A stretch of DNA of 64,000 nucleotides from a virus. The notes beneath the pieces are model-generated. The model ran no database searches, was not told where the DNA came from, and saw only the letters and a program-made list of their open reading frames with translations. Shown here in pieces: positions 3,961 to 54,533 of the stretch (position 1 is its first letter; each line of letters starts with the position of its first letter). The DNA lies in the IMG/VR virus record IMGVR_UViG_3300023184_000031, positions 1 to 64,000 of that record; one strand, given 5' to 3'. The position numbers and the translations under genes are program-made.

Positions 3961-3983
3961 CGTTAACCAAATAAATAAACGTT

Positions 3984-4211: not shown

Positions 4212-4216
4212 CACAC

Positions 4217-4240: not shown

Positions 4241-4262
4241 CATTAACCAAATAAATAAAATT

Positions 4263-4469: not shown

Positions 4470-4478
4470 ATGTGATGG

Positions 4479-4502
4479 GGCAAAACATAACACGTATATT
4501 CA
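4479..4502 (+). promoter_or_regulatory. early-type promoter
   Basis: GGCAAAA (4479-4485), 9 bases, TATATTCA (4495-4502), then CATTAACCAAAT. Confidence 0.8.
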
Positions 4503-4526
4503 CATTAACCAAATAAATAAAAGTAT

Positions 4527-5189: not shown

Positions 5190-5214
5190 TATCAGTACTA
5201 ATAATTGAGTATGT

Positions 5215-5240
5215 AGAGGGCGTCCGTGAGGACGCCTTCT
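5215..5240 (+). terminator. hairpin, probable terminator
   Basis: GGCGTCC (5219-5225) pairs with GGACGCC (5230-5236), loop GTGA, extended outward by AGAG/TTCT. The T run is short. Confidence 0.6.
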
Positions 5241-24103: not shown

Positions 24104-24544
24104 ATGAATTGGTTATATGAATACGTCCCATTACGGGACGATTTTACTACAAACAATTACGGTTTTATATATAAAATCACTAATTTAGAGACAAATAAAT
24201 TTTACGTTGGTAAAAAATCATTTGTTCATAACAAGAAAAAAAAACTCACCAAAAAAGAGATAGCTGAACAAACAGGCCCGGGCCGTCGCTCTACCACCAA
24301 GGTAGAACAAGTTGATAGCGGTTGGCGTAAATACTGGGGTTCATCTAAAGAATTACTAGCTGACGTTAAATCGCTAGGCGAAGACAAATTCGAACGTGAA
24401 ATATTAAAGTTCTGTCCTACCAAAAAACAACTTACATATTACGAAATACAATATCAAATATCATATTCAGTATTATTTACTGACAGTTATAATGATAATA
24501 TACTAGGTAAGTTTTATAGGAAAGATTTTGCTACGGCAGAATAA
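24104..24544 (+). CDS. GIY-YIG endonuclease
   Basis: 146 residues. GFIYKITNLETNKFYVGKK (about residues 20-38) gives the GIY and YIG strands. The Arg/Lys-rich insert, WRKYWGSSKEL and the later FEREILKFC and YYEIQYQ (Glu) complete the fold. Typical of free-standing phage homing-type endonucleases. Inserted between an accessory gene and the primase gene, and some codons are GC-rich (CCCGGGCCG near 24280), consistent with mobility. Confidence 0.75.
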   Translation: MNWLYEYVPLRDDFTTNNYGFIYKITNLETNKFYVGKKSFVHNKKKKLTKKEIAEQTGPGRRSTTKVEQVDSGWRKYWGSSKELLADVKSLGEDKFEREILKFCPTKKQLTYYEIQYQISYSVLFTDSYNDNILGKFYRKDFATAE

Positions 24545-24562: not shown

Positions 24563-25495
24563 ATGGAAAATGCTGCCCTTCTAATTTTATTGGAATCTGT
24601 ACTAGGTACTAGTAACAAAACTAGTCGGGGTAATTATTCATTTAAATGCCCATTTTGTACTCACCATAAGAATAAACTCGAAATCAACTGCATAACAAAC
24701 GCTAAAAGCGAGAATCCTTGGCATTGTTGGGTGTGTGAGGCGAAAGGTAAAACCATTAGATCTCTCCTTAAAAACATGAAAGCGCCGTCTAATAAATTAA
24801 CGGAGCTAAACATGATTATTGCACCTGGTAAAGAATATAAGCAAATATCCACTACACTCGAATTACCTAAAGAATTCATATCATTAACTGATATTGTTGA
24901 AAATCGAATTACAACCATTGAATCAAAACATGCTATCAAATTTTTACGTAAGCGTGGTATAACACCTGAAGATATTATAAAATATAATATTGGTTTTTGT
25001 AATGATGGACCATATAAAGATAGAGTTATTATTCCCTCATACGATGAAAATGGTATTGTAAATTACTTTATTGCTCGCGCTTATAAAGAGGGACCACAAA
25101 AATATAAAAATCCTCCCGCTGATGCTAAGTCTGCTATTGGTTGGGAGTTATATATAAATTGGGATGCACCCGTCATACTTGTTGAAGGTATGTTTGATGC
25201 TTTAACAATTAAACGCAACGTCATCCCACTATTTGGGAAAATTATTCACGAGAAGCTAATGAAAAAATTAGTTCGTTCATCAGTTAATAGAATCTATATT
25301 GCATTAGATCCTGACGCTATTAAAAATGCTTTTAAATATGCCGAACAATTAATGGCTTATGGTAAAGAGGTATTTTTAGTGGAATTAGATGGTAAAGATG
25401 CAAATGAAATTGGATTTGAGCGGTTTTTAAACATTATTGAAACCACAGAACCACTTAACTTTCAGAGCCTATTAGCTAAAAAACTTCAATTATGA
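24563..25495 (+). CDS. DnaG-type DNA primase
   Basis: 310 residues from the ATG at 24563 (a GTG six bases earlier is possible but overlaps the promoter). A zinc ribbon: CPFC at residues 29-32 and CWVC at 55-58. TOPRIM core: VILVEGMFDALTI near residue 205 (Glu) and RIYIALDPDA near 245 (Asp pair). Makes RNA primers for phage replication. Shorter than bacterial DnaG, as in gp61-type phage primases. Its last bases overlap the start of the nuclease gene. Confidence 0.85.
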   Translation: MENAALLILLESVLGTSNKTSRGNYSFKCPFCTHHKNKLEINCITNAKSENPWHCWVCEAKGKTIRSLLKNMKAPSNKLTELNMIIAPGKEYKQISTTLELPKEFISLTDIVENRITTIESKHAIKFLRKRGITPEDIIKYNIGFCNDGPYKDRVIIPSYDENGIVNYFIARAYKEGPQKYKNPPADAKSAIGWELYINWDAPVILVEGMFDALTIKRNVIPLFGKIIHEKLMKKLVRSSVNRIYIALDPDAIKNAFKYAEQLMAYGKEVFLVELDGKDANEIGFERFLNIIETTEPLNFQSLLAKKLQL

Positions 25496-26277
25496 TTGAA
25501 AAAAATGCAAACATCATTAAAGACCCTAACATTAAACGTATTGTAGAATACAAAGAGGGCGACAAACAAATTAACATTCTAGATTCTAGATTTTACCGTA
25601 GAGATGACAAATATTACCCATCAGTAACATCAGTATTAAATTATTTCCCTAAAAACCAATTTTTCCATTCCTGGTTGAAAGATGTTGGCCACAACGCCGA
25701 CATCATTGCTTCTAAAGCAGCAGGTGAAGGTACACAGGTACATAATGCTATTGAGCAATTCCTTAATGGAGCTGAAATACAGTGGATTGATGAATATGGT
25801 AAAGCGCAATATAATTTAGATGTTTGGAGAATGATATTGAAATTTGCTGATTTTTGGAATACCCATAAACCAGAACTAATATCAACTGAGTATCATTTAT
25901 TCTCGGATGTACATGAATATGCTGGAACAGCGGATTTAGTTGTTAGAATTGATGGTAAATTATGGTTATTAGATATTAAAACATCTAATTCGCTACATAC
26001 TAGCTATGGTTTACAACTATCCGCTTATGCTATGGCTTGGAACGAAACACATACAGATCCTATTGAAAGAACAGGAATATTGTGGTTAAAAGCATCGACA
26101 CGCACTGCTGGTAAAGACGGTAAAATTCAAGGTAAGGGTTGGGAATTAAAGGAATATAGTAAAATTGCTGAAAATTTCGTTATGTTTAAAAACATATATG
26201 AAATATATAAAATGGAAAATCCGGACTTTAAACCATATACTGAATTATTACCAATTAGTATTAAAATAACAGAATAA
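25492..26277 (+). CDS. RecB/Cas4-like PD-(D/E)XK nuclease
   Basis: 261 residues. The catalytic order is visible: GTQVHNAIEQFL (His/helix motif, ~82), GTADLVV (Asp ~147), LLDIKTS (D-x-K ~161-163) and QLSAYAMAW (Gln ~173). This fits the RecB/Cas4-like exonuclease family that trims or recombines DNA ends. Overlaps the primase stop by 4 bases, so the two form a replication/recombination pair. Confidence 0.8.
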   Translation: MIEKNANIIKDPNIKRIVEYKEGDKQINILDSRFYRRDDKYYPSVTSVLNYFPKNQFFHSWLKDVGHNADIIASKAAGEGTQVHNAIEQFLNGAEIQWIDEYGKAQYNLDVWRMILKFADFWNTHKPELISTEYHLFSDVHEYAGTADLVVRIDGKLWLLDIKTSNSLHTSYGLQLSAYAMAWNETHTDPIERTGILWLKASTRTAGKDGKIQGKGWELKEYSKIAENFVMFKNIYEIYKMENPDFKPYTELLPISIKITE

Positions 26278-26304: not shown

Positions 26305-27726
26305 ATGAATTTAGGACAATACTTAGCTAATACACTATTAGAAGCAGAAAATCAACCAACAATAGCATTATTCCCAGGGGTATTTAAACCACCACATAAA
26401 GGTCACGTTGATGTAGTAAATAAACTACTAAAAGCGGCGGATCAAGTAGTAATACTAATATCACCAAAAACACGTGAAGGTATTACTGCTGATGAAAGTG
26501 TTGCTGTTTGGAACTTATATAAAGATAAAGGTCTATTTGATGGTTCAGTTGAAATTAAAGTATCATCATCACCAACACCTGTTGGAGAAGTATATGATGT
26601 TGTTAAAAAAAATCCCGATAGTGAATTTTTAGTAGCATTTGGTAAAGATGAAATTAGTCGTTATAAGAATATTGAAAAATTCTTTAATGTAAAAGTATTT
26701 GATGCTGACTCAGTTGAAGGTGTTGATTCTACTAGTTTGCGTATGGCACTAATACAGAAAAATGAAGATGAAATATCAAAATTACTTCCTGATGGTGTAT
26801 CAACAGATGAATTTTTAACAGCATTGAATACTAAACCAGAAGAAAAATCTGAAGAAACACCAACAGAACAACCACCAACTGAACAGCCAACACCTGAACA
26901 ACCATTACAAGAATCACCTCCAATTAATTTTGAAGATGATGCTTATCAAGATTATGTAATGCAAAATCAAGATAAAATAGAAAAAGCAGCTGCTGTATTT
27001 AATTTACCAATCCCTGATATGAACTACGCTTTTGATAGTGGAGATGAAGTAGTATTGAATGATGATATGTGGGATAAGCTGCAAAATAGCAAATCATATA
27101 AAATGAAAACATTAGATGATGCTATTCAACATTCATTAAAATTAGGTATAAATCCTAAACCATATATTGATCAAATTAAAGCTGGTAAGGATATGCCATT
27201 ACCACTTGTATTATGTTATGGACAGGATAAGTATTATTTGGTAGGTGGTGAAGTAGTATTATCCTTATATAGAGCTTTAGGTTCAATTCCAACTGTACTA
27301 CAGGGCACATTAAATTTACAAACTAAACAATTACATCAACCTACTTCTCTTGGTGAAGGTTTAAATAATGATACCGATAAACAATTATTAAAGAAATTTA
27401 TTGATTTCGCTATTAAAGAATTAGGCATAAAAAAACCACCAACATCCCTTACATTATCAAGAGATAATGGTATGGCTAAAGAAATGCATACATTTGGTTC
27501 ATTTAATCCTAATAACGATAAAATATGGTTGTATGTTAAAAACCGTAACATGGCTGATTTGCTACGTACATTAGCACATGAATTAGTACATCGTAAGCAA
27601 GCTGAGGATGGTAGAATAGATTACAATAGTGGTGAAACGGGTAGTGAAATTGAAAATGAAGCAAATGCTCAAGCAGGTGTATTATTAAGAAAATTTGGTA
27701 AACAAAACGAAGAAATATATCAATAA
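26305..27726 (+). CDS. tagged nucleotidylyltransferase / ParB-like / metallopeptidase fusion
   Basis: 473 residues with several modules. Residues 1-13: tag-like helix NLGQYLANTLLE followed by A. Residues 18-175: nucleotidylyltransferase (cytidylyltransferase-like) fold with H31-K-G-H34 (PPHKGH) and the closing VDSTSLR (140-146), as in NMN adenylyltransferases. Residues 178-205: Pro/Glu/Thr linker with PTEQP repeats. Residues ~215-340: unknown helices then a ParB/sulfiredoxin-like strand set (LPLVLCYGQDKYYLVGGEVV). Residues ~355-473: zinc peptidase with H425-E-L-V-H429 and a Glu-rich helix (GSEIENEANAQA). Looks like a polyvalent protein carried in the head. Late promoter precedes it. Confidence 0.75.
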   Translation: MNLGQYLANTLLEAENQPTIALFPGVFKPPHKGHVDVVNKLLKAADQVVILISPKTREGITADESVAVWNLYKDKGLFDGSVEIKVSSSPTPVGEVYDVVKKNPDSEFLVAFGKDEISRYKNIEKFFNVKVFDADSVEGVDSTSLRMALIQKNEDEISKLLPDGVSTDEFLTALNTKPEEKSEETPTEQPPTEQPTPEQPLQESPPINFEDDAYQDYVMQNQDKIEKAAAVFNLPIPDMNYAFDSGDEVVLNDDMWDKLQNSKSYKMKTLDDAIQHSLKLGINPKPYIDQIKAGKDMPLPLVLCYGQDKYYLVGGEVVLSLYRALGSIPTVLQGTLNLQTKQLHQPTSLGEGLNNDTDKQLLKKFIDFAIKELGIKKPPTSLTLSRDNGMAKEMHTFGSFNPNNDKIWLYVKNRNMADLLRTLAHELVHRKQAEDGRIDYNSGETGSEIENEANAQAGVLLRKFGKQNEEIYQ

Positions 27727-33401: not shown

Positions 33402-34151
33402 ATGATTAAATTAGCTGAATTATTAGATAAAGTAGGTCAAGAAGACGATGACATCAACAATGATGGTAAGGTAGATAAAACAGACAAATATCTTCTTAAA
33501 CGCCGTAAAGCAATAGCTACTAATCTTAAGGAAAATGATACTCCAAAGCATAAGATCATTGCTCAATTGATGGGTCCTGATTTTTTCTTATCTAAAAAAC
33601 CAGAAAGTAGTTGGGATGATAAAGATCACGATTTATTTAATCGCATTACAAAAATGGCTCAAGAAACAGGTAAAGTTCCTAAGCTAAAAGAAAATCAAGA
33701 CCATGAAGTATCAATGGCACAAGCCAGTTTAAAATCAATTATTAAATCAGCCGCTCAACTAATGCTTAAACTAGGCAATATGGAGCGTGATATACCAGGA
33801 TGGATACAAGATCACATCACAAACGCTGAAAATTATATTGATCAAGCATCTCAAGGATTCCACGAATTAAACGAAGGTCCTCAAATTGGTAAACTTCCTG
33901 TAAGAATATATAAACTTGTTCAAGGAAAAGAAACTGAATTATCTAAAATTAAGAATCCTAAAGTAATAGATTATATTAAAAAGAATTCTGAAAACATAAA
34001 TATAGAGGATTTAGCTAAACTTCTTTCTGTACGAGAGCAAGTTGCTTTACAATATATAAACGCTTTAAAAACATTAGGAGCTTTAGTATCAAAAAATCCC
34101 ACTACTAGTAAACCTATGAGTAGTAATGATGTTGATGATTTATTTAATTAA
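33402..34151 (+). CDS. MIKL-tagged protein with EF-hand-like loop
   Basis: 249 residues. Tag-like start MIKLAELLDK. Next a dockerin/EF-hand-like loop DINNDGKVDKTDKYLLKRR (about residues 17-35), which could bind calcium. Residues ~105-160 hold HEVSMAQASLKSIIKSAAQL and IPGWIQDHITNAENYIDQA, a helical module common in virion-linked proteins of large phages. The C-terminus looks like a winged-helix/HTH unit. Unknown role. Confidence 0.55.
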   Translation: MIKLAELLDKVGQEDDDINNDGKVDKTDKYLLKRRKAIATNLKENDTPKHKIIAQLMGPDFFLSKKPESSWDDKDHDLFNRITKMAQETGKVPKLKENQDHEVSMAQASLKSIIKSAAQLMLKLGNMERDIPGWIQDHITNAENYIDQASQGFHELNEGPQIGKLPVRIYKLVQGKETELSKIKNPKVIDYIKKNSENINIEDLAKLLSVREQVALQYINALKTLGALVSKNPTTSKPMSSNDVDDLFN

Positions 34152-34167: not shown

Positions 34168-34704
34168 ATGAATAAACAACTATTATTAGAAAAATACATT
34201 AAGGTAGCTGTTAAAAAAGCTCTTAAAGAGCAAGAAGAACAACAGCGAAAAGCAGAAAAAGCGATGTACATGGTATATCGTTTTCCTGGTTTGAAAAAAC
34301 TAATGGAAAATTTAATGTCACCTGCTTTTGGTCGCTACGTTAATAGTATTAATATAGTTGCTCCCAAACCAACAACATTTCAAGTTGATTTAATTAATGG
34401 TCAAGATTTTAGTATTAAATATATTGGCAAAGGTAATTTCCAAGTTAAAGTATCTGGTAGAAAATATGATCCTATTAATTTAGGTGAATTAGAGCGTGCT
34501 TCACAAGGTATAGCTGATTTATTAGAATTAAATTACGCACCTAAAGAAGTCGCTGAAGGTGGAGGAACACCACCACCAACTGAATCACCGGCAACATCCG
34601 GAGCTGAATTAGGCCCTGATTTAGCAGGGGCAGGAGCAGCTGAAACAGCACTACCAACAGGAGCTGAAACACCAGAAACACCAGAAACACCAGAAGAAGC
34701 ATAA
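34168..34704 (+). CDS. tagged hypothetical protein with Pro/Thr tail
   Basis: 178 residues. Basic amphipathic start LLLEKYIKVAVKKALKE|QEE. Small alpha/beta core (about 55-125), then a low-complexity Ala/Pro/Gly/Thr/Glu tail ending in PETPETPEEA repeats. No family recognised. Tandem 2-base gap to the next gene. Confidence 0.5.
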   Translation: MNKQLLLEKYIKVAVKKALKEQEEQQRKAEKAMYMVYRFPGLKKLMENLMSPAFGRYVNSINIVAPKPTTFQVDLINGQDFSIKYIGKGNFQVKVSGRKYDPINLGELERASQGIADLLELNYAPKEVAEGGGTPPPTESPATSGAELGPDLAGAGAAETALPTGAETPETPETPEEA

Positions 34705-34705: not shown

Positions 34706-35791
34706 ATGGAAGTTATAGACAAAATATTAAATGAGTGGTCATACCGATGCCACGATGGGATTGTTGATTTAAATGATCCTAATAAATTACCTATTTTGAA
34801 AGAAATAATGATTGAGGAAGATATTGATGATGATATTTTAAATGCTTTAATAAATACAGACGAAGATACTAAAACAAAAGTTTTAAAACTTATTAAAAAA
34901 GTTAATAAAAACTCAATAGGAGATTTAAAACCTATTTTAGATAAAAAAGGTATAGGAATTTTAACTAAAAATGTTATATACGATATTGAAGAAGCAGGGC
35001 AAATAGATGAATTATTAGCATACTTAACTTCTTCTAAACAGATAGATTTAGATCAATTAAAAAGTGATAGTAACTTATTTTCTTTGTTTGAAAAAACAAA
35101 TTTAAGTAAAGAAGCTATTCAAGCCTTAGTAGATACTAGTGGAATTTTAGGTGGTGTTGCTATAGGAAGAGGAGAAGTAGCATTAATTACTTTATTAAAA
35201 GATGCTAAAAGAGCAGAAAAAGGAGATATTCAAATAGGTGATAAAAAAATAGAAATAAAAAATAGAAGTAAAGATACTGGTAGTATATTAGCACCTGAAA
35301 AAGAATCTAGAGGAGGAGCAACTGAAGTAAATAATATGTTAGCAAAAGCTATAGATAATTTATTTACTGATGATCTCTTTAAAAAAGAAATATCAGACAA
35401 TATTTTAAAAAAGAATCAAAAAGGAATAAGATGGCCAAATAAAATAGATATTATGTATAAAGCTTTTTTAGATCAAAATCAAAAAGGCAATACTAAATCT
35501 AGTTTTGAAACAGAATTAAATAAAATATTAAAGGATTTATATAAAGAAAATGCCCCTGATATAAAAGATTATTTAGACGGAAAAAACTTTAACGTAGATA
35601 AATTCAAAATAGACATAGCAAAAAAACTAGCAGAAAAATATTACGATGAATTTAAATTTGATTATATACTTTTTATAAATCCTGATTTAAGTTATTCACT
35701 ATATGAAGAAAATAGTTTTTTAGAAGACATAGGGCAAGAAATAACAGTATCTGGATTTTCAGATTATCTTCCACGATTATATCACAAATAA
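34706..35791 (+). CDS. tagged PD-(D/E)XK-like nuclease candidate
   Basis: 361 residues. Starts MEVIDKILNE|WSYRCHDGIVDL, an N-terminal module shared by other phage proteins. Residues ~154-186 give GRGEVALITLLKDA ... KGDIQIGDKKIEIKNRS: Glu157, Asp174 and E183-I-K185, the E-D-ExK order of PD-(D/E)XK restriction-type nucleases. The rest is Lys-rich helical. If it is packaged, it could attack host DNA or competitors at once after infection. Activity is inferred from motif order only. Confidence 0.55.
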   Translation: MEVIDKILNEWSYRCHDGIVDLNDPNKLPILKEIMIEEDIDDDILNALINTDEDTKTKVLKLIKKVNKNSIGDLKPILDKKGIGILTKNVIYDIEEAGQIDELLAYLTSSKQIDLDQLKSDSNLFSLFEKTNLSKEAIQALVDTSGILGGVAIGRGEVALITLLKDAKRAEKGDIQIGDKKIEIKNRSKDTGSILAPEKESRGGATEVNNMLAKAIDNLFTDDLFKKEISDNILKKNQKGIRWPNKIDIMYKAFLDQNQKGNTKSSFETELNKILKDLYKENAPDIKDYLDGKNFNVDKFKIDIAKKLAEKYYDEFKFDYILFINPDLSYSLYEENSFLEDIGQEITVSGFSDYLPRLYHK

Positions 35792-35805: not shown

Positions 35806-36045
35806 ATGACACAATTTAACCCCTCAGACAAAATAACAGTAGATATACCCTTATTTATACGCCTATTAGAATACGCTCGTGAAGACGCTAAAACCGATAT
35901 GGATTTACATAACGTAGCTGAAAACGCTATCAAATTAAGTGAAACAGGTAAAACATTAACTATGACTCAATACGATAATATAGTTAAAAACCCACAACAA
36001 GAATTAAAAGAACGCTTAAAAAAACTAGCCAATATAATTGGATAA
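35806..36045 (+). CDS. small helical protein ending in LANII
   Basis: 79 residues: DIPLFIRLLEYAREDAKTDM and DLHNVAENAIKLSE, closing with ERLKKLANIIG. The ending resembles the RMQKLANIIK end of the scaffold protein at 51756. Not recognised functionally. Followed by a hairpin and an early-type promoter. Confidence 0.55.
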   Translation: MTQFNPSDKITVDIPLFIRLLEYAREDAKTDMDLHNVAENAIKLSETGKTLTMTQYDNIVKNPQQELKERLKKLANIIG

Positions 36046-36159: not shown

Positions 36160-36639
36160 ATGAATATATTTTACATAAACACAGATCCTGTTACAGCAGC
36201 ACAACAGCTAGCAGACGATCATATTCGTAAAATGCAGATTGAATCTGCACAAATGTGCTGTACCGCTCATTGGGCTTCAGGTAGCGAAGCACCATATAAA
36301 AGAGCACATTTGAATCATCCATCAACTAAATGGGTTAGAGAATCTATACACCACTACAGATGGGTTGTGGAACATGGTTTAGAAGTATGTAATGAATTTA
36401 CTAAGCGTTATGGTAAATTACATAAAACACAAGGTGTATTAGAATGGTGTCGTGATAATGAACCTAGTATTCCTGATAATGGATTTATTGAACCACCACA
36501 ATGTATGCCTGATGAATATAAGAAAGCTAATGCTATAGACGGATACAAGACATACTATATAGAAGATAAAATTAAAAATAAACAACTAACATACAATAAA
36601 TTAAACAATACCCCAGAATGGATAAAAAAATCGTTATAG
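36160..36639 (+). CDS. conserved phage protein of unknown role
   Basis: 159 residues: FYINTDPVTAAQQLADDHIRK, MQIESAQMCCTAHWA, HLNHPSTKWVRES, EFTKRYGKLHKT. This order (DxDPxxAA, HxxK, ESAQ, NHP, W.R, RYGK.HKT) is widespread in phages and usually left unnamed. Any link to DNA-repair glycosylases is only a guess. His/Trp-rich. Overlaps the start of the FAD dehydrogenase gene by 22 bases and shares its promoter. Confidence 0.55.
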   Translation: MNIFYINTDPVTAAQQLADDHIRKMQIESAQMCCTAHWASGSEAPYKRAHLNHPSTKWVRESIHHYRWVVEHGLEVCNEFTKRYGKLHKTQGVLEWCRDNEPSIPDNGFIEPPQCMPDEYKKANAIDGYKTYYIEDKIKNKQLTYNKLNNTPEWIKKSL

Positions 36640-43624: not shown

Positions 43625-43966
43625 ATGAAACAACAAATTAACGAAATCAAAAGAATGCAAGAGTTAGCTGGCCTATCAGTAAACAATGAAGCATTTGCTT
43701 CTTTTCAAAATACATTTAAAGATACAAATGATGAAGAGCAAAAACAATCAATGACAAGAGTATATGGAGACGCTGATGATTATCCTAAAGAATTAAATAC
43801 ATTAGTATCAACTTTTATAGGAGCTTCAGATAATTATGCAATCACAAAAGATGGTAACACATTTAATGTTTATAAATACAGACGTATGCTAGATGGTGTT
43901 GGTAATCCAACTCCCTTTACTAGTATAGATGATGCTAAGAAGTTTATACAAAAGGATAATAGGTAA
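43625..43966 (+). CDS. LAGL-tagged small protein
   Basis: 113 residues. Starts MKQQINEIKRMQELAGLSVNNE|AF, combining an N-terminal helix and the RMQxLAGx motif seen at other protein ends. The body is a small alpha/beta domain (NYAITKDGNTFNVYKYRRM). Single-gene unit: terminator and late element before it, another terminator after it. Possible internal head protein. Confidence 0.5.
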   Translation: MKQQINEIKRMQELAGLSVNNEAFASFQNTFKDTNDEEQKQSMTRVYGDADDYPKELNTLVSTFIGASDNYAITKDGNTFNVYKYRRMLDGVGNPTPFTSIDDAKKFIQKDNR

Positions 43967-44055: not shown

Positions 44056-45651
44056 ATGGCTGAACAAGCTAACATTAAAGATATAATAAAACAGGAATAT
44101 ATAAAATGCGCTATGGATCCCGTGCATTTTTTCCGCAAATATTGTTACATTACCCACCCGGTTAAAGGTAGAGTATTATTTCATTTATACTCATTTCAGG
44201 AAAATACATTAAATGAATTTAGATCTAATCGTTTTTCTATTGTAAATAAATCACGTCAGTTAGGTATTTCTACTCTAGTAGCAGGATACTCATTATGGAC
44301 AATGTTATTTAATAAGGATAAAACAGTATTGTGTATAGCAACAAAGCAAGAAACCGCTAAAGGTATGGTTGAGAAAGTACAGTTTATGTATAATAATCTA
44401 CCAGCTTGGCTACGTGGTAATACAAAACCACTATCAGATAATAAACTCTCACTCAAATTAGCCAATAACTCTCAAATTGTAGCTACATCAGCCGCCTCAG
44501 ATGCAGGTAGATCTTACGCTGTATCTTTGTTACTAATAGATGAGGCCGCGTTTATTGAAGGTATTGATAAAATATACACGAGTATTAAACCAACAATTGC
44601 TACGGGTGGAGGAATTATTGCCTTATCATCACCAAATGGTATTGGTAACTGGTTCCATAAAATGTATACTGAAGCTCAAATTGGTAAGAATGACTTTAAG
44701 CCAATAGAACTAAAATGGAATTTACACCCAGATAGAGTGGCACCAATAGATCCAGGATGGGAAGAACGTGAACGTGCTAATATGTCTCCTAGAGAATTTG
44801 CTCAAGAGTATGACTGTGACTTTTTGGGATCAGGAAACTCAGTCGTAGATTCAGACATATTAACCTTTTATGAGCAAACATACATCCAAGAACCAATCGA
44901 ACGTCGCTTTTTGGGTGGGGATTATTGGATTTGGCAGTATCCAGATTATAGCAAGTCTTATGTGGTGTGCGCTGACATTGCCCGTGGTGATAGTAGTGAC
45001 TATTCTACGTTCCATGTTATCGACATCGAATCCTGTGAACAAGTCGCAGAATATAAATCCCAAATAGGTACTAGAGATTTTGGTAATATGCTAGTATCTG
45101 TTGCTACAGAATACAACAACGCATTATTAGTACCAGAAAACTCAAATATAGGATGGGATGTTGTTAATACTATTATTGAAAAAGGATACCAAAATCTATA
45201 TTATTCTCCTCGCGCTTATGGTGAACTAAATATTGATAAGTGGATGGCTAAAATGGGTACCGATCAAACAGTACCTGGGTTTACTATGTCAGTAAAGACA
45301 AGACCACTTGTTATCTCTAAAATGGAGGCGTATATTCGAGATAGACATTTTATTTTTCATTCTAAACGTTTGCTAGAAGAACTACGTGTGTTTATTTGGA
45401 TGAATGGTAAACCACAAGCACAAAATGGATATAATGATGATTTGGTAATGGCCTTAGGTATTGGATTATTTATTAGAGATACTGGTATTAAATTTAATCA
45501 ACAAGGTATGGATATAACTAGAAAATCTATTGATAATATATCTAGTACAAGATTGGGATATAGTAATATGGCATCCATGCCTGATGGTGTAGCTAACCCA
45601 TACCAAATAGAAACCCCATATGGGTCAGAGGACATTACATGGCTAATATAA
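44056..45651 (+). CDS. 17: terminase large subunit (gp17-like)
   Basis: 531 residues. ATPase part: NKSRQLGISTLVAGYSLW (about 64-80) in the Walker A place, LLLIDEAAF Walker B (159-165, D162 E163), then the SSPNG coupling motif. Nuclease part: YVVCADIARGDSSDYSTF (about 301-318) with the first Asp, and the C-terminal NDDLVMALG. It cuts and pumps DNA into proheads. The normal Walker A Lys (SRQLGKTT in T4) is Ile71 here. The small subunit was not found. Confidence 0.92.
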   Translation: MAEQANIKDIIKQEYIKCAMDPVHFFRKYCYITHPVKGRVLFHLYSFQENTLNEFRSNRFSIVNKSRQLGISTLVAGYSLWTMLFNKDKTVLCIATKQETAKGMVEKVQFMYNNLPAWLRGNTKPLSDNKLSLKLANNSQIVATSAASDAGRSYAVSLLLIDEAAFIEGIDKIYTSIKPTIATGGGIIALSSPNGIGNWFHKMYTEAQIGKNDFKPIELKWNLHPDRVAPIDPGWEERERANMSPREFAQEYDCDFLGSGNSVVDSDILTFYEQTYIQEPIERRFLGGDYWIWQYPDYSKSYVVCADIARGDSSDYSTFHVIDIESCEQVAEYKSQIGTRDFGNMLVSVATEYNNALLVPENSNIGWDVVNTIIEKGYQNLYYSPRAYGELNIDKWMAKMGTDQTVPGFTMSVKTRPLVISKMEAYIRDRHFIFHSKRLLEELRVFIWMNGKPQAQNGYNDDLVMALGIGLFIRDTGIKFNQQGMDITRKSIDNISSTRLGYSNMASMPDGVANPYQIETPYGSEDITWLI

Positions 45652-45658
45652 TTAATAA

Positions 45659-45667
45659 ATATTTATT
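45659..45667 (+). promoter_or_regulatory. late-type promoter element
   Basis: ATATTTATT 17 bases before the portal ATG. Confidence 0.65.
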
Positions 45668-45684
45668 GACATAATAAAACACAA

Positions 45685-47574
45685 ATGGCTGAACAAAATA
45701 CAGGTTTATTTAGTAGATTAAGACGTTTATTTAGTACTGATGTGGTAATCAGAAATGTAGGCGGAAACCAACTAAAAACAATAGATGTTGATCGTATCCA
45801 AGCATATGGTAATGTAAAAACCAATGCTCTTATAGATAGATTTACTAAGCTACACCGCTATGGCGCTAATATGCCATACAACCCAACAATGAACTACCAA
45901 ACACTTCGTATTCAGTTGTATACTGACTATGAAGCTATGGATACTGAATCAATCATTGCCTCTGCTCTTGATATTATTGCTGATGAATCAACACTTAAGA
46001 ATGAAACACAAGAAGTATTACAAATTCGATCACCAGATGAAAATGTACAACGTATATTATATAATTTATTCTATGATGTATTGAATATTGAATTCAATTT
46101 ATGGTTATGGATTAGAAATATGTGTAAATATGGCGACTTTTATTTACATCTTGAGATAGCTGAAAAATTTGGTGTATATAATGTAACACCATTATCAGTT
46201 TATGATATGATTCGTGAAGAGGGTATGGATCCTCAAAATCCATCATACGTTTGTTTCAAGATTGATCCAATGGTGATCGCAGCTGGTGGTATTAATTCAC
46301 GTGTTAAAGATAGAGATGGTAAAATCAAATTTGAAAACTACGAAATAGCGCATTTCAGGCTATTAACTGACGCTAACTATCTCCCTTATGGACGCTCGTA
46401 CATAGAGCCTGCTCGTAAAACATATAAGCAGTATGTGCTGATGAAGGATGCAATGATGCTCCATCGTATAACACGTGCCCCGGAAAAACGTGTATTTTAT
46501 GTTGATATAGGTAATATGCCACCAAACGAGGTTGATGGATACATGGAACGTTTAAAGCAAAAAATGCAAAAAACACCATATATAGATAAAAATACAGGTG
46601 AATATAATCTGAAGTATAATATGATGAACGTGATGGAGGATTTTTATATCCCTCAACGTGGCTCTAACTCAAATACTAAGATTGATACAATTAAAGGTCT
46701 TGAATATAATGCTATTGATGATGTAAATTTCCTACGTGATGAAATGTTAGCGGCGCTTAAGGTACCTAAAGCATTCTTTGGCTTTGAAAAAGATTTGACT
46801 GGTAAAGCTACATTAGCTGCTGAAGATATTCGTTTCGCTCGTACAGTAGAGCGTATTCAGCGTATTGTATTATCTGAACTATATAAAATTGCATTAGTAC
46901 ATTTATATACTCAAGGATTTGATGGTGAAGCACTATCTAATTTTGATTTAGCATTAACAGTTCCATCAATTATATATGAGCAAGAAAAAATTGCTCTATG
47001 GAAGGAAAAGATTGCATTAGCTAAAGACATGCAGGACACTAAATTAATCCCATCTGATTGGATATTCGACAATATATTCCAATTCAGCGAAGATCAATTC
47101 GATGAAATGCGCGATCTAGTAGCTGAAGATATGAAACGTACATTCCGCTTCTCACAAATCGAGAATGAGGGTAATGATCCGGCTAAATCAGGTAAATCAT
47201 ATGGCACACCACATGATCTAGCATCATTGTATGGTAAAGGTAGAGCAGGTATGAATATAGATGGACCTGTCCCTCCAGGATATGATGAAAAACGTCCTGT
47301 TGGTCGTCCTGAAGAAAAAGCATCTATTATAGGTACACAAAAAGATCCATTAGGTAAAGATAGATTAGGTAGTAAAGAAAATGCTACATTATATACTGCT
47401 AATATTCCTGATGAAGGTAGTGGCACACCAAAAAGCTATGGTGCTTTAGCACTAGCTGAAACATTGCGATATAGAGATATGTTAAAAGGTATACCAAGAT
47501 CTGATAAACAAATGGTATTCGAATCGCAACAGGAATCTTCATTATTAGACGAAAAAAATATTAAGGATATATAA
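45685..47574 (+). CDS. 20: portal protein (gp20-like)
   Basis: 629 residues, larger than T4 gp20 (524). Portal-type blocks: MDTESIIASALDIIADEST, GDFYLHLEIAEKFG, THE clip/stem region APEKRVFYVDIGNMPPNEVD, and DVNFLRDEMLAALKVPKAF with EKDLTGKATLAAEDIRFART. These match gp20-type portals. The C-terminal ~120 residues are a low-complexity tail with KRPVGRPEEKAS. Forms the 12-fold head vertex, DNA entry and neck docking site. Placed between terminase and core genes as in T4-like maps. Confidence 0.92.
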   Translation: MAEQNTGLFSRLRRLFSTDVVIRNVGGNQLKTIDVDRIQAYGNVKTNALIDRFTKLHRYGANMPYNPTMNYQTLRIQLYTDYEAMDTESIIASALDIIADESTLKNETQEVLQIRSPDENVQRILYNLFYDVLNIEFNLWLWIRNMCKYGDFYLHLEIAEKFGVYNVTPLSVYDMIREEGMDPQNPSYVCFKIDPMVIAAGGINSRVKDRDGKIKFENYEIAHFRLLTDANYLPYGRSYIEPARKTYKQYVLMKDAMMLHRITRAPEKRVFYVDIGNMPPNEVDGYMERLKQKMQKTPYIDKNTGEYNLKYNMMNVMEDFYIPQRGSNSNTKIDTIKGLEYNAIDDVNFLRDEMLAALKVPKAFFGFEKDLTGKATLAAEDIRFARTVERIQRIVLSELYKIALVHLYTQGFDGEALSNFDLALTVPSIIYEQEKIALWKEKIALAKDMQDTKLIPSDWIFDNIFQFSEDQFDEMRDLVAEDMKRTFRFSQIENEGNDPAKSGKSYGTPHDLASLYGKGRAGMNIDGPVPPGYDEKRPVGRPEEKASIIGTQKDPLGKDRLGSKENATLYTANIPDEGSGTPKSYGALALAETLRYRDMLKGIPRSDKQMVFESQQESSLLDEKNIKDI

Positions 47575-47581
47575 TAATTAT

Positions 47582-47590
47582 ATATTTATT
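47582..47590 (+). promoter_or_regulatory. late-type promoter element
   Basis: ATATTTATT 21 bases before the ATG at 47612. Confidence 0.65.
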
Positions 47591-47611
47591 GGTAGTGCAC
47601 ACTAAACTTAT

Positions 47612-48466
47612 ATGAAAATAAAACATAGTAAATTTAAAAATACTGGTATATTATTTGAATTACTAGTACGCCAAGTAGCATCAGATACAGTATCTGGTAA
47701 AGACTCAGCTGCTATTAATTTGATTAAGAAATATTTTTCCAAGTCAGAATTGGCTAAAGAATATAAACTATACCAGGCTTTAGTTAACTCAAAAGCATTA
47801 ACAGAAGGTAAAGCCGAGTCATTAATTAATGCTACGCTTGAAATATCTTCACGTTTAAATCGCTCTGCACTACGTAAAGAAAAATATAACATTATTAAGG
47901 ATATTCGTGAACATTATGATTTAGAAGATTTTTTTAAATCAAAGATTAACAACTACTCCCAATATGCTGCTGCATTTAATTTAATAGAGGCTCACAACTC
48001 ACTAGAGTTTGTTGAGCCATCTCAAGTTATTGAAAATAAGGTAACACTACTTGAACACATCATACGTAAAGAAGTAAATAAAGATGAAGTAAAAGATCGT
48101 GTAATGGAAGAATATCTTTCAATGGATAAAGGTACGCGCATTTTAGTATACAAAACATTATTAGAAAGATTTAATAATAAATATAATGATATGTCTAACA
48201 CACAGAAATCTGTGTTGAAAGAATACATTAATAATATATCTAATACTGTTAAATTACGTGAATTTGTTAATAATCATTTCGCTGCTATTAGAGCAGAATT
48301 GAATAGATTAAATCAAACAGTAACAGACAAAACAGTACAAATTAAAATACACGAAGTGGTTAATATTCTTAAACCACTTGAGAAAAATCAAAATGTAAAA
48401 GACGACAATATTATTGCTTTACTACAATTCCACCAATTAATATCAGAATTAAAGACAGTAAAATAA
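47612..48466 (+). CDS. conserved head-cluster helical protein
   Basis: 284 residues, all-helical, basic. Start KIKHSKFKNTGILFELLVRQV, then long helices (NNHFAAIRAELNRLNQTVTD; HEVVNILKPLEKNQNV). This gene type lies between portal and protease in related phages but has no named function. Probably prohead core or assembly. Stop overlaps the next start. Confidence 0.6.
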   Translation: MKIKHSKFKNTGILFELLVRQVASDTVSGKDSAAINLIKKYFSKSELAKEYKLYQALVNSKALTEGKAESLINATLEISSRLNRSALRKEKYNIIKDIREHYDLEDFFKSKINNYSQYAAAFNLIEAHNSLEFVEPSQVIENKVTLLEHIIRKEVNKDEVKDRVMEEYLSMDKGTRILVYKTLLERFNNKYNDMSNTQKSVLKEYINNISNTVKLREFVNNHFAAIRAELNRLNQTVTDKTVQIKIHEVVNILKPLEKNQNVKDDNIIALLQFHQLISELKTVK

Positions 48467-49134
48467 TGGATTTAAAAGAATATATCAAACAGCTTGCCCG
48501 TGAAATATTGGATGAAGAAACGGGTACAGGTGCTATTGGTGTTGGTGCTGGTCCTATTATGACACCAAATTGGGTTGCTCCTAAAGGACAAAAAGAAAAC
48601 GCTGCAACTAAAACAGCTAAAAAGCAAGGGTTTACTGTTACTAAAGGTGAAACTGAAATGCCTGGTGATTCTAAAGTAAAAGATTACGTATCATTAACAG
48701 GTAAGAAGAAAAAGAAAGTTAAAATATACCAGGAAAGCGGCTACGATGATCCATCTAAATATGGAGCAAAATCCGAATATGGAGCATCATCACCATATAG
48801 TGCTGCATCTAAATATGGCGCTGCAAGTGAGTATACAAAAAACGAATCACTGACAAATATTGTTAAAGAAGAGTTACTGAACGAAGTAACATACCATAAA
48901 TTCAAAAACGAAGTTAAATTCCGCACTAAAAACGAACAACTACACAAAGCAATACGTGAAGTAAAACGTAAATTACAAGAAATTGATCGTATTGTTGAAT
49001 ATACATCTCGTATGAAGCAAGAATTGAGTGAAGGTGAAGAAGGATTAAAGTACTGGAAAAAAACAGAAAGCAATATAGCAACTATATCAGAAATGATAAA
49101 TCAATTAAACAACAAAATTAAAAACTTATATTAG
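48466..49134 (+). CDS. tagged head-core protein with YGA repeats
   Basis: 222 residues. Tag helix DLKEYIKQLAREILDE|ETG. A Lys-rich middle, then tyrosine repeats SKYGAKSEYGASSPYSAASK, then a helical basic end (HKAIREVKRKLQEIDRIVEY). The position among head genes suggests a core protein like T4 gp67/gp68 in role only. A second IVKEELLNE site in the middle could be another protease site. Confidence 0.55.
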   Translation: MDLKEYIKQLAREILDEETGTGAIGVGAGPIMTPNWVAPKGQKENAATKTAKKQGFTVTKGETEMPGDSKVKDYVSLTGKKKKKVKIYQESGYDDPSKYGAKSEYGASSPYSAASKYGAASEYTKNESLTNIVKEELLNEVTYHKFKNEVKFRTKNEQLHKAIREVKRKLQEIDRIVEYTSRMKQELSEGEEGLKYWKKTESNIATISEMINQLNNKIKNLY

Positions 49135-49136
49135 TA

Positions 49137-49265
49137 ATGGCTAAAGCAAAAGGATCTAGTGATGCTAGAAAAGTTACATTTGGAGCTCGTAAAAAAGGAA
49201 CAGCAAAAAAATCATTCAATAAACACACACCACGACCTAAGAAATACGTAGGTCAAGGACGATAA
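49137..49265 (+). CDS. small basic head-cluster protein
   Basis: 42 residues (MAKAKGSSDARKVTFGARKKG..., ending RPKKYVGQGR), extremely basic. Small proteins with this FG.RK.G.AKKS.NKH.PK.K.Y.GQGR pattern occur near portal/core genes of other phages. Probably nucleic-acid binding inside the head. Starts 2 bases after the preceding stop. Confidence 0.65.
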   Translation: MAKAKGSSDARKVTFGARKKGTAKKSFNKHTPRPKKYVGQGR

Positions 49266-49275
49266 AAGACATACA

Positions 49276-50973
49276 ATGAAAAGTATTAAACAACAGTACA
49301 TCGATCTACGTGAAGGTAATATGTCACAAGCAAATTTCATGCGTAACTTACGTATGACCTTACCTCAATACGTTACTAATTTATCTTCATTTGAAGACTC
49401 AGTTCGTATCCTTAAAAATAAAGGTATATTGACTGAAGCTGATCTTTCTATATCAAAAGATACAGTAGATAAGATGAAAAGTGTCCTTCAAGGATTAACA
49501 GCTAATAATGATGAATATCATAGAGACGGATATACTATGGGTTTCTTTGAAGGTGAGGGTCAAGATGAAAAAGGTAAAGAAATATCTGAAACCGATACTA
49601 ATTCAGGTCCAAATGCTCAGTGGTTAGGAAGCATTAAAGATATTATAGAAGATAAATGGCAAAATGGTGAAATCAAAACATCGGCTGAATATGGTAGTGT
49701 AATGACTAAATTAAGTACTCAACCAGAAGGTATAATAGCTCAATATGGTGAAACTAGTGCTGAAGATGCTGCTAATAAATTACTTAATAGTGTATCTCAT
49801 TTAGGTAGTGAATATGAGCCAGAATCAGGAGAAGATGAAGATTTTGAAAGAGATTATGATATGGATTATAAAGACCCAAATGATCCTTTTGATATGGCTG
49901 AATCATTAAATGAAACAGTATCAGATGATGAGATCATGAAAAAATATAATGAAATGTTTGGTAAAAATCCACAAACTAAATTTGCGGATGTAGCTAAAGC
50001 ATTAAATATTCCTGAAGATCAAGTTAGTGCTGCTTTACAACCGGGAAATATACCTAAATTTGGTTTAAGAGAAGCCAAAGACGAAAAAGGTAAATGGACT
50101 AATACATCTGGTAAATCAATGTATGATCAATTTAAAGAAATTGACAATTTAAATGGTCAAGAAGTATTGATTGGTATTGATTTTGAAATGGAAAAAAACC
50201 ATGATTTAACTAAACAAGAGGCTGCTAAAATTGTAATTAGGAATTTAAAGAAAATTCCAAACTATTATACTAATTTTAAATTGTCAGGTAAAGAAGGATA
50301 CGAACCAGGTTATATTGGCGGGAAATCAGCTCAACCAGAAGCACATCAGATGCAGTATCTTGATAAAAACAGGGGTAATGTAGTTGATAAGAAAAGAGGA
50401 ATGCAACCAGTAAAAGGTGTTGAAAAACCTAAAAAAGATTCTGATAAAGGCGGTGAAACAAATAAAGCAGAAAAGAATATTAAATTAATGTCTCTTATCG
50501 CTAAAACAGTACGTGGCATGAAGAAAATGGATGCGACTGGTGAGAAAATGAAGAAAATTGTAATGAAAGAAGCACAATTAAATGACTTCCCAGGTGAAAC
50601 ACCAGGTAAAATAGCTCAACAAATACAAAATTATATTGATAGCAACCCAACATTACAAAAATATTCAGACGAAATTACATTACAATCAAATCCTGATGGA
50701 TTTTTAAGATTTGGATATTGGGAAACATTACCATCTGATGCTGCTAAAGCATTATCATTGCAATTCAATATTGAACCAGATTATATTGATGCTGATGAAG
50801 ATACTTCAGGGGGAACTTTTTACAGATTAACACCAAAACATACAGCTGGTAAAGTTAATTTAAATAAAGCTGATTTAATGAGAATGATTCGTGAAGAATT
50901 AGCTGAAATAACAGGCGTTTATAGCGGTGATGCAATGGATGCTGAAGACGGAAGTTCATACACAAACGATTAA
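49276..50973 (+). CDS. head-core/assembly protein
   Basis: 565 residues. N-terminal module QQYIDLREGNMSQANFMRNL, RMTLPQYVTNLSSFEDSVR, ILKNKGILTE|ADLS, a block found in other large-phage core proteins; the Glu before ADLS is a possible protease site. The middle is acidic (PESGEDEDFERDYDMDYKDP) and Lys-rich further on. Near the end LMRMIREELAEITG repeats the tag-helix type. Lies between portal and protease, consistent with a scaffold/core role. Confidence 0.6.
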   Translation: MKSIKQQYIDLREGNMSQANFMRNLRMTLPQYVTNLSSFEDSVRILKNKGILTEADLSISKDTVDKMKSVLQGLTANNDEYHRDGYTMGFFEGEGQDEKGKEISETDTNSGPNAQWLGSIKDIIEDKWQNGEIKTSAEYGSVMTKLSTQPEGIIAQYGETSAEDAANKLLNSVSHLGSEYEPESGEDEDFERDYDMDYKDPNDPFDMAESLNETVSDDEIMKKYNEMFGKNPQTKFADVAKALNIPEDQVSAALQPGNIPKFGLREAKDEKGKWTNTSGKSMYDQFKEIDNLNGQEVLIGIDFEMEKNHDLTKQEAAKIVIRNLKKIPNYYTNFKLSGKEGYEPGYIGGKSAQPEAHQMQYLDKNRGNVVDKKRGMQPVKGVEKPKKDSDKGGETNKAEKNIKLMSLIAKTVRGMKKMDATGEKMKKIVMKEAQLNDFPGETPGKIAQQIQNYIDSNPTLQKYSDEITLQSNPDGFLRFGYWETLPSDAAKALSLQFNIEPDYIDADEDTSGGTFYRLTPKHTAGKVNLNKADLMRMIREELAEITGVYSGDAMDAEDGSSYTND

Positions 50974-50979
50974 TATAAT

Positions 50980-51603
50980 ATGAAACAACTACTCATAGAC
51001 CATACACCCTTTAAAATAGCTAAGCTAACGCTTACCGAAGGTAAATCTACCAACGGTAGAATGTTACTTGAAGGTAAACTACAAGAAGCTGAAGTGAAGA
51101 ATGGTAACGGCCGCAGATACCCACGCGAAGTATTAGAACGTGAAGTCAACAAATACATACAAGGACCAGTAAAAAATAACAATGCTATGGGAGAATTAGA
51201 TCACCCAGAATCATCTGTTATTAATTTATCAAATGTATCACACAATATTAAAAAAGTGTGGTGGGATGGTAATGATTTGATGGGACAACTCGAATTACTT
51301 AACACACCATCAGGCAAAATTGCAATGGAACTTGTTAGTGCTGGAATACCATTAGGTATATCATCACGCGGTATGGGTTCTGTTAAGCAAATTGGCGAGA
51401 CTGTAGAGGTACAAGACGATTTCGAATTATTATGTTGGGATTTAGTATCAGTACCATCAACACCAGAAGCATATATGCATCCAGTTGGTAAACTTTCAAC
51501 AATGAATGAAGGTAAAAAATATATTGTTAGAGATTATAGCAGAATCAATTCATTAATAACTGAAATAATTTGTTCACAAACAGGTGTTTGTCCGCTCTGT
51601 TAA
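50980..51603 (+). CDS. 21: prohead core protease (gp21-like)
   Basis: 207 residues, like T4 gp21 (212). Catalytic signs of the S78-type prohead proteases: GELDHPE (His75), PLGISSRGMGS (Ser128/129) and CWDLVSVPSTPEA (Asp154 region). It cleaves scaffold, internal proteins and capsid precursors after Glu during head maturation; likely sites here are LVTE|A in the capsid protein and the N-terminal tags. Three Cys near the C-terminus (IICSQTGVCPLC). Confidence 0.9.
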   Translation: MKQLLIDHTPFKIAKLTLTEGKSTNGRMLLEGKLQEAEVKNGNGRRYPREVLEREVNKYIQGPVKNNNAMGELDHPESSVINLSNVSHNIKKVWWDGNDLMGQLELLNTPSGKIAMELVSAGIPLGISSRGMGSVKQIGETVEVQDDFELLCWDLVSVPSTPEAYMHPVGKLSTMNEGKKYIVRDYSRINSLITEIICSQTGVCPLC

Positions 51604-51629
51604 ATATTTGCGGTTTTCAATATCTACAT

Positions 51630-51638
51630 ATATTTATG
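51630..51638 (+). promoter_or_regulatory. late-type promoter element
   Basis: ATATTTATG; 118 bases before the scaffold ATG, with a hairpin starting at its last base. Confidence 0.5.
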
Positions 51639-51668
51639 GGTAGCCTACAATAAGCTACCCTATTTTTA
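51638..51668 (+). terminator. hairpin after the protease gene
   Basis: GGGTAGC (51638-51644) pairs with GCTACCC (51654-51660), then TATTTTTAT. May end protease transcripts or act in the scaffold leader. Confidence 0.6.
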
Positions 51669-51740
51669 TCCTCATGTAGCTTTGGTATTATAAATCCACA
51701 CATTAAGATTCCCAATAATCTTATTTCCGTAATTAAATTT

Positions 51741-51746
51741 AAGGAG
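51741..51746 (+). promoter_or_regulatory. strong Shine-Dalgarno site
   Basis: AAGGAG 9 bases before the scaffold ATG. Nearly all other genes here lack such a site. Confidence 0.6.
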
Positions 51747-51755
51747 AAAATTTTT

Positions 51756-52862: not shown

Positions 52863-52883
52863 AACAAAACAAATTTTAAACAA

Positions 52884-54533
52884 ATGAACATTCAACAACT
52901 TTTAGAATCGTCTAATCAGTACAAAGTAATTGCTGATGACGCAAAAAAACTTTCCCACAAGTGGGGTAAGTCTGGCCTTTTAGAAGGCATTAAAAGCGAA
53001 ACTGATCGCAACACAATGGCTATGCTATTGGAAAATCAGGCAAAACAATTAGTTACAGAAGCTTCTTCAACTGGTACTCAAACTCCAGGTGCTGGTGCTT
53101 ATTCTGGTGAATCTTGGAACGGCGTTGCTCTTCCATTGGTACGTAGAGTATTTGGTGAAATCGCTGCTAAAGAATTCGTTAGTGTACAACCAATGAACTT
53201 ACCTTCAGGTCTTGTATTCTATCTTGATTTCAAATATGGCACTAATATTAATCCATTCACTAGTGGCGGTTCTTTGTATGGCGCTAATACTTCTACAAAC
53301 GTAACTGATATTACTTCAGCTTCATTATATGGTGCTGGTAAATTTGGTTATTCAATCAATCAGTATACTCAGTCAAGTATTACTGTAGTAAGTGGTTCTG
53401 CTACATGGGCTGATTTTAACTTTGATTCAGATTATTCATCTTCTGCTGCTGCTGGTCAATATGCTAAAATTCAAGTTCCATTACCTAATGGCTTTGATAA
53501 GAATGGTGTAAGAGCCTTTACAATTGTATCAGGTTCTACTATTGCTGCTACAGATGTTTTACAAAACTTTACAACTCTTAATGTTGCTCAAACTACAGCT
53601 TCATTTTTTGTTACTGGTAGTAAAATTTCTCAAGCTGGTACTGGTTCTTTCGTTTTGTATTATGATTTTGCTCCTCAAGATTCTGGTAGTGGTCAATTCC
53701 GCGGTGATTTTGAAGATGGTGTTACTAAACAACCAGGTAATGCTGCTCCTTCAACAATCAATATCCCAGAAATTAACGTTCAGTTAAAATCTGAAGCAAT
53801 CGTTGCTAAAACTCGTAAGTTAAAAGCACAATGGACACCGGAATTCGCTCAAGATCTTAACGCTTACCATAGCGTAGATGCTGAAGCTGAATTAACTGGT
53901 ATCTTATCTCAATATATTTCAATGGAAATTGATTTAGAATTGTTAGATATGTTGATTCAAAACGCATACACTACGGATGCATGGTCTGCAATTAATAACA
54001 CAACTATTGCTGTTAGTGGTACTGGTACTAGTACAGTTTTATCTAACCCAACAACTAATACAGCTGGTTATTACAATACACAAGGTGGTTGGTTCCAAAC
54101 TTTAGGTACTAAATTACAAAAAGTTTCTAACAAAATCCATCAGTTGACTTTAAGAGGTGGCGCAAACTTCATGGTTTGTTCTCCTACAGTTGCTACAATT
54201 ATTGAGTCAATCCCAGGATTTGCTGCTGATGGTACAGGTGAAAAATTAGAGTACAACTTCGGTATCCAGAAAGTAGGTAGCTTGAACAGTCGCTACAAGG
54301 TTTACAAAAATCCGTATATGACTGAGAACGTTATCTTGATGGGTTACAAAGGATCTCAATTCTTGGAATGTGGTGCTGTATTTGCTCCATATGTTCCATT
54401 AATCATGACTCCATTGTTATACGATCCAAGTACATTCACACCAAGAAAAGGTTTGATGACTAGATACGCTAAGAAAATGATCCGTCCTGATTACTATGGT
54501 AAGATCTATGTTAGTGGTTTGAATACTATCTAA
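52884..54533 (+). CDS. 23: major capsid protein (gp23-like)
   Basis: 549 residues (T4 gp23: 521). N-terminal propeptide starting MNIQQLLE|SS with the likely maturation site QLVTE59|A60, matching T4 LTE65|A66. Then LVRRVFGEIAAKEFVSVQPM, PSGLVFYLDFKYG, the central VDAEAELTGILSQYISMEID (cf. T4 MDADAELSGILA), ANFMVCSPTVATIIES, YKVYKNPYM and the closing YYGKIYVSGL. HK97-type shell subunit. A strong terminator follows. Confidence 0.95.
   Translation: MNIQQLLESSNQYKVIADDAKKLSHKWGKSGLLEGIKSETDRNTMAMLLENQAKQLVTEASSTGTQTPGAGAYSGESWNGVALPLVRRVFGEIAAKEFVSVQPMNLPSGLVFYLDFKYGTNINPFTSGGSLYGANTSTNVTDITSASLYGAGKFGYSINQYTQSSITVVSGSATWADFNFDSDYSSSAAAGQYAKIQVPLPNGFDKNGVRAFTIVSGSTIAATDVLQNFTTLNVAQTTASFFVTGSKISQAGTGSFVLYYDFAPQDSGSGQFRGDFEDGVTKQPGNAAPSTINIPEINVQLKSEAIVAKTRKLKAQWTPEFAQDLNAYHSVDAEAELTGILSQYISMEIDLELLDMLIQNAYTTDAWSAINNTTIAVSGTGTSTVLSNPTTNTAGYYNTQGGWFQTLGTKLQKVSNKIHQLTLRGGANFMVCSPTVATIIESIPGFAADGTGEKLEYNFGIQKVGSLNSRYKVYKNPYMTENVILMGYKGSQFLECGAVFAPYVPLIMTPLLYDPSTFTPRKGLMTRYAKKMIRPDYYGKIYVSGLNTI

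Follow-up and report, generated by a model that had tools for sequence, protein, structure and literature searches.

Restriction-type nucleases exchanged behind a constant N-terminal module in immuto-related phages: a candidate head-packaged cargo slot

Why would a T4-like phage carry a restriction-type nuclease behind a start that resembles a capsid-targeting tag? The question is raised by a gene, called tag-nuclease below, in the stretch of DNA analyzed here (64,000 nucleotides, the window). The virus record that holds the window is 170,255 bp long and has a single copy of the gene, whose ORF begins with an ATG one base past the stop codon of the preceding gene. Flavobacterium phage immuto is the nearest cultured relative of the window phage; its orthologue, gp193, is annotated as hypothetical and shares 27% identity (tblastn). 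The locus encodes a protein of the PD-(D/E)XK type, its motif intact and its N-terminal module constant, in a fixed slot where the cargo behind the module is exchanged and which is represented once in each long record of the immuto-related group. Such a locus is most likely a polymorphic slot of the T-even internal-protein type, loaded with restriction-type nucleases. The parts of the gene are these:

34706..35791, + strand: tag-nuclease gene, ORF of 361 aa
34706..34735, + strand: decamer MEVIDKILNE, putative capsid-targeting sequence (hydrophobic at 4, 7, 8; E10)
34736..34813, + strand: residues 11-36, rest of the module (W..RC..G..D.N.P....L.EI), conserved in ~90 proteins
34814..35062, + strand: residues 37-119, variable helical linker (AlphaFold helices; pLDDT >90 from residue 71)
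35063..35788, + strand: residues 120-361, predicted PD-(D/E)XK nuclease domain (AlphaFold model; VIA-align to HinP1I)
35174..35176, + strand: E157 codon, first catalytic-type acid (helix), invariant in 23 sequences
35225..35227, + strand: D174 codon, metal-binding-type acid, invariant in 23 sequences
35252..35260, + strand: E183-I-K185, (D/E)xK motif on a strand; E183 and K185 unchanged across 23 sequences

Is the protein a nuclease? The original prediction had picked out E157, D174 and E183-I-K185 as a restriction-type core, and these residues are indeed in place, as G-R-G-E157-V-A-L, G-D174-I and I-E183-I-K185. Conservation of the catalytic residues in homologues, the lack of which it had named as refuting, was examined in 23 relatives with 21 to 54% identity to the window protein. 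These were fetched by N-terminal peptide patterns and are therefore unselected for the catalytic motif. E157, D174, E183 and K185 are invariant in all of them, and past the N-terminal module the only other invariant columns are G154, G173 and P356. By a hand estimate, which ignores the more frequent conservation of charged residues, the chance that four motif residues would fall among seven invariant columns of ~315 is ~1e-7. Immuto gp193 keeps all four as well.

Fold prediction, which it had proposed as a check, gave a PD-(D/E)XK core. The AlphaFold model, built with the alignment of the relatives, has a pLDDT of 83 for the window protein, and its core (helix 157-163, strands 167-169, 175-177 and 180-186, helix 205-219, strands 320-324 and 329-333; pLDDT mostly >80) is a mixed beta-sheet between helices that carries the catalytic motif, with E183-I-K185 on strand 180-186. 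The best domain-wide match in the PDB is the restriction enzyme HinP1I, at a modest Z of 4.6 over 148 residues (rmsd 4.4 Å), and HincII is the second restriction-enzyme match (Z 2.9); both span about residues 114-361. The top row of the PDB comparison is a spidroin (Z 5.2), and the rows that are not restriction enzymes mostly match local helices. Foldseek returned no PDB match below 0.001 for the model, and three uncultured phage proteins at ~1e-7 to 1e-8 from a viral library. By sequence, the window protein could be placed convincingly in no family of Pfam, PHROGs, NCBIfam or PADLOC, and it had no match in a profile-based search of the PDB or in a plasmid search. A Pfam DUF4015 match (2e-5, under the cut-off) is confined to helical residues 258-325 and was rejected as compositional. 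From the invariant residues and the model, a nuclease fold and catalytic competence are very likely, and the predicted identity as a PD-(D/E)XK nuclease gains further from the independent nuclease types found in the same slot (described below).

The protein starts with a module of ~36 residues that is common to ~90 distinct proteins of uncultured phages, relatives of immuto. Its pattern can be written M..IDKILNEWSFRC..G and its consensus M.VIDKILNEWSFRCHDGIVDLNDP.KL.IL.EIL. The proteins were collected by searches with the window protein and with the N-terminal alignment, using a regular expression that fixed D5, W11, R14, C15 and G18, and 90 tags were further filtered for E10-W11, so that the invariance of all these residues is partly built in. 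Residues 11-36 are kept with many cargo types and have low AlphaFold confidence. Over the module dN/dS is ~0.24, and it is therefore constrained as a protein, beyond what a mere recombination arm would need. As a family for the module, phrog_734 reached E values of only 0.03 to 0.1 and was not accepted. Bacterial genomes gave 87 pattern matches to the module, with no relative among them.

What would such a module do? In T4, ten residues suffice, positions 4 and 7 serving targeting and positions 8 and 10 processing, with the cut after (L/I)xE (PMC9026906). The decamer of the window protein follows this rule (residues 4, 7 and 8 hydrophobic, (L/I)xE ending at residue 10), and the would-be prohead-protease cut falls after E10. 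The start KILNE had been read as tag-like and as part of a tagged cluster, a reading that goes beyond chance: of the 66 ORFs in the 64-kb window, to which the statistic is confined, 10 have the pattern [ILVM][ILVM]xE with its E between residues 8 and 13, versus 1.6 expected (binomial p = 5e-6), a six-fold enrichment at N termini. Several of these ORFs have the form MIKLxxILxE, the E falling at position 10 as in tag-nuclease. Maturation of the capsid protein likely occurs at LVTE/ASS in the window phage and IVSE/ANV in immuto, to judge from the sequences. These predicted sites have the same form as the (I)(L/V)xE of the tag, and V-x-E accommodates the tags with V8; residue 8 in the relatives is L or V, of which V is outside the T4 rule, and residue 9 is free to vary. 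Several features speak against packaging or cleavage, however. Residue 11 is W, an unusual P1' residue where a small one is normal. With a length of about 36 residues and a single copy in each genome, the module is more than a generic ten-residue tag. In L169 and L170 it is internal rather than N-terminal, and in these two loci and L095 the module gene sits among nucleotide-metabolism genes. In L167 the module is a free-standing 77-aa ORF (5084-5314) near gp32-like and UvsX-like genes, where it may bind some part of the replication or packaging machinery.

The neighborhood of the gene, and the head genes (terminase, portal, gp21-type protease and major capsid protein) that follow at 44056-54533, are as follows:

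33402..34151, + strand: neighbor with a tag-like start and a DINNDGKVDKTDKYL motif; homologue of part of immuto gp192
34168..34704, + strand: acidic protein with a Pro/Glu tail, the upstream partner; homologue of the immuto gp192 C-terminal part
35806..36045, + strand: downstream 79-aa ORF ending RLKKLANIIG, like the scaffold C terminus
44056..45651, + strand: terminase large subunit (PHROG matches)
45685..47574, + strand: portal protein (phrog_213, 2e-60)
50980..51603, + strand: prohead protease, gp21 type, the expected tag-cutting enzyme (phrog_207, 4e-55)
52884..54533, + strand: major capsid protein (phrog_138, 2e-71)

The acidic protein matches the C-terminal part of gp192 with 41% identity over 82 aa (E 1e-18), and a homologue stands directly upstream of the module gene in nearly all loci of both main lineages. 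Our guess is that this acidic neighbor and module residues 11-36 act as a loading partnership for the variable cargo. The next gene upstream matches a gp192 segment with 71% identity over 34 aa. Its motif DINNDGKVDKTDKYLLKRR, shared with gp192, has a weak dockerin-like match, and the product may bind calcium. Genes downstream of the slot are typical of each lineage; in the immuto-like lineage the slot is followed by one or two genes and then by terminase and portal. The 79-aa ORF directly after the nuclease was not found at the corresponding place in some relatives. Its end resembles a second tag-like motif, RMQxLAG, found near the N terminus of small proteins and similar also to the putative scaffold C-terminal helix RMQKLANIIK; sites of the RMQxLAG/RLKKLANIIG type lie at 43625-43966, 51756-52862 and 35806-36045 of the window and at 10145-10609 of L001. 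Elsewhere the window encodes a SegE-type GIY-YIG endonuclease (24104-24544), a separate PDDEXK_1 exonuclease (25492-26277) and a pyrimidine-dimer glycosylase (36160-36639), and at 2456-4526 has ~2 kb without a plus-strand ORF of at least 80 aa, holding only minus-strand ORFs of the chance type, which is unusual for a phage.

The larger result concerns the cargo behind the module. In 741 locus pairs, which are not independent of one another, the flanks are similar at the DNA level on both sides while similarity between the cargoes is undetectable. In the closest pairs the flanks are 90 to 95% identical and the cargo nucleases unrelated: flank identities are 95.4% and 92.7% for L150/L166 and 89.8% and 93.8% for L059/L060, each with dissimilar cargo. 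Compared codon by codon, identity stops at codons ~27-38 and returns at the stop codon, and the linker (residues 37-119) belongs to what is swapped. Each of the 11 long records from the immuto-related group has exactly one copy of the module gene, with no empty allele at the slot in any of the 11. A distant uncultured phage of 484 kb also has one copy, and the module is missing from six genomes of cyanophages and other T4-like phages. This polymorphic slot is new within the open-licence literature searched, to August 2026.

What do the alleles encode? The C-terminal parts of the module proteins fall into groups without a BLAST link; profile-profile comparison joins clusters 0-3-7-9 and 1-2, and at least seven groups remain unlinked. 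Nearly all show an E...D...(E/S)xK motif, and every cluster examined has its own version among the invariant polar residues, such as E150-D204-S217xK219 for cluster 1 and E123-D149-E158xK160 for cluster 3. Cluster 1, modelled on its own with AlphaFold, has HinP1I as its best match (Z 6.1, 164 residues) and then Hjc, RecU, SwaI, DpnI and MvaI, all PD-(D/E)XK proteins, as are most of its structural matches overall. Cluster 2 matches the PADLOC Type II REase model at 4.5e-10 and is, by sequence, a relative of Type II restriction enzymes, with untagged relatives in cyanophages and other T4-like phages, one of them annotated as CviJI-like; a search for untagged phage relatives of clusters 1 and 3 found none. 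L078 and L136 have the module without a recognizable nuclease. In L078 (8001-8948; a 173-kb phage record with a rearranged neighborhood) a cargo is present but cannot be recognized as a nuclease, and in L136 (5255-6475) the module is followed by ~100 residues that are not nuclease-like and then by a separate ORF that resembles DnaQ-type exonucleases; the slot there may have been remodelled or have decayed.

Our preferred explanation, towards which we lean modestly, is that tag-nuclease represents one of many alleles at a polymorphic slot for cargo, where the constant module packages an interchangeable restriction-type nuclease for injection. The module would load the nuclease into the prohead core, the decamer would act as a capsid-targeting sequence trimmed by the prohead protease, and the nuclease would enter the next host together with the phage DNA, there to cut DNA other than the phage's own, be it the host chromosome, plasmids, prophages or rival phages. 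We infer packaging, cleavage, injection, DNA cutting with its target, and the sparing of the phage's own DNA. Head packaging is plausible, given a decamer that fits the T4 rule and an encoded gp21-type protease. T4 has been made to package EcoRI and staphylococcal nuclease by means of the targeting sequence or internal-protein fusions (PMC9026906), and packaging an active nuclease is therefore feasible. In virions of the T4-like cyanophage S-CREM2, mass spectrometry revealed a cytidylyltransferase starting MKNFSSFLTE/ADE (PMC10665884), and the window cluster encodes a protein of the cytidylyltransferase class at 26305-27726. S-CREM2 (OR473000) gp12, annotated as a CRISPR-Cas9 nuclease and represented by 28 unique peptides in purified virions (PMC10665884), is another packaged-nuclease candidate. 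The T-even internal proteins have only the targeting sequence in common, and with this constant-N-terminus layout T-even phages inject diverse inhibitors (PMC3012670, PMC12373910). For immuto and its group, no virion proteomics was found in the open-licence literature. The broader evolutionary proposition, that a T4-like lineage maintains a slot set aside for restriction-type nucleases, which are exchanged behind a constant packaging module and coinjected with the genome, and that conflict with hosts or rival phages has diversified the alleles, is more tentative, and we hold it as slightly short of probable.

One inherent challenge for a phage that delivers a DNA-cutting enzyme is to spare its own genome. 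The original prediction held that the phage DNA would need protection, a need that is met by no methyltransferase of the three families searched for: PF01555, PF02086 and PF00145 are absent from the 170,255-bp record, with positive controls. A Type II restriction-modification system was rejected on the same absence of a cognate methyltransferase. In the immuto-like lineage the downstream gap is 28 to 52 bp, into which no cargo-specific immunity gene fits. The options for self-protection are that cut sites are absent, that the DNA is modified, or that the nuclease is activated only after entry.

Could the nuclease serve the phage without leaving the cell? The main rival, a serious one even if unlikely, is a late, noninjected nuclease that works at the packaging motor, where it would trim replicated phage DNA or resolve its branches and so match T4 endonuclease VII in function. 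The module would then hold whichever suitable nuclease is present to portal or terminase, and cargoes would be replaced by nonorthologous displacement. This fits the position of the slot, from which terminase and portal are one or two genes away in the immuto-like lineage, as well as the single copy in each long record of the group, the resemblance of the cluster 1 model to Hjc and RecU after HinP1I, and the failure to find RuvC; in the search for endonuclease VII the control itself matched nowhere. But unrelated alleles between flanks that are 90 to 95% identical point to diversifying selection over slow displacement, the cargo domains (~220-350 aa) exceed Hjc (~115-125 aa), sequence-specific Type II enzymes are among the relatives of one cluster, and in L078 and L136 the module comes without a recognizable nuclease.

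The second rival also keeps the enzyme inside the cell, as an unpackaged, homing-like weapon that cuts co-infecting phages carrying another allele, after which repair copies the cassette by way of the flanks and the module. PhiPA3 gp210, which cuts the DNA of co-infecting PhiKZ, is a precedent (PMC11620839); exchange running exactly from module to stop codon between homologous flanks would suit it, as would the lack of a methylase or immunity gene in the searches. The purifying selection on the module (dN/dS 0.24), the enrichment of the decamer pattern in the gene cluster and the absence of an empty allele from every long record of the group count against it, and we consider it rather improbable. 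A homing endonuclease proper was rejected, given that each of the group's 11 long records has one copy, with alleles that differ and none empty. Might the fold be kept only for binding? T4 Ip1-3, non-nuclease inhibitors of GmrSD restriction enzymes, occupy a comparable slot (PMC12373910), and the cargo could likewise be a structural or antidefense internal protein, a decoy or inhibitor that does not cut. A binding role would not demand that the active-site E, D and K be the most conserved residues in each cargo cluster, as they are, and this last alternative is very improbable indeed.

If packaging and injection by way of the slot hold true, what phages deliver from the virion includes DNA-cutting enzymes that can be interchanged, beyond inhibitors of host defense, and new restriction-type nucleases could be found by their constant N terminus instead of a methylase neighbor. 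Alleles that differ only in cargo make the target of a phage nuclease testable by comparison, and the presence of the gene in cultured immuto makes its function testable in a cultured phage.

How does the slot compare with known systems? The T-even internal proteins IPI-III/Ip1-3 have the same constant N terminus with hydrophobic residues at 4, 7 and 8 and E10, unrelated cargo, a polymorphic locus and an encoded gp21-type protease. Their cargo consists of small restriction inhibitors, whereas here it is nuclease-like, and their conserved stretch is 10 aa, versus ~36 aa for the candidate packaging module here. Because conservation extends beyond the decamer and the module is single copy, the slot is filed as working like the T-even internal proteins and not as a member. 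Type II restriction endonucleases of the HinP1I fold group share the PD-(D/E)XK core predicted here and supply the only domain-wide matches among solved structures, with a modest score for the window protein, and one cargo cluster matches PADLOC REase_II; unlike them, the nuclease is phage encoded behind a packaging-type module, in a record without a cognate methyltransferase of the three families. The CviJI-like nuclease genes of T4-like cyanophages and of phiM12/DLP6 (phrog_13937), which adjoin cytidylyltransferase genes in cyanophages and DLP6, are homologous to cluster 2 cargo but do not have the N-terminal module. With PhiPA3 gp210 the slot has in common a phage nuclease, and action against another phage is established there; that enzyme, however, is an HNH nuclease, intron encoded, made in the cell and without a slot of swapped alleles. 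To the CTS-EcoRI fusions made in T4, the slot would be the natural counterpart, if its nucleases are packaged and injected.
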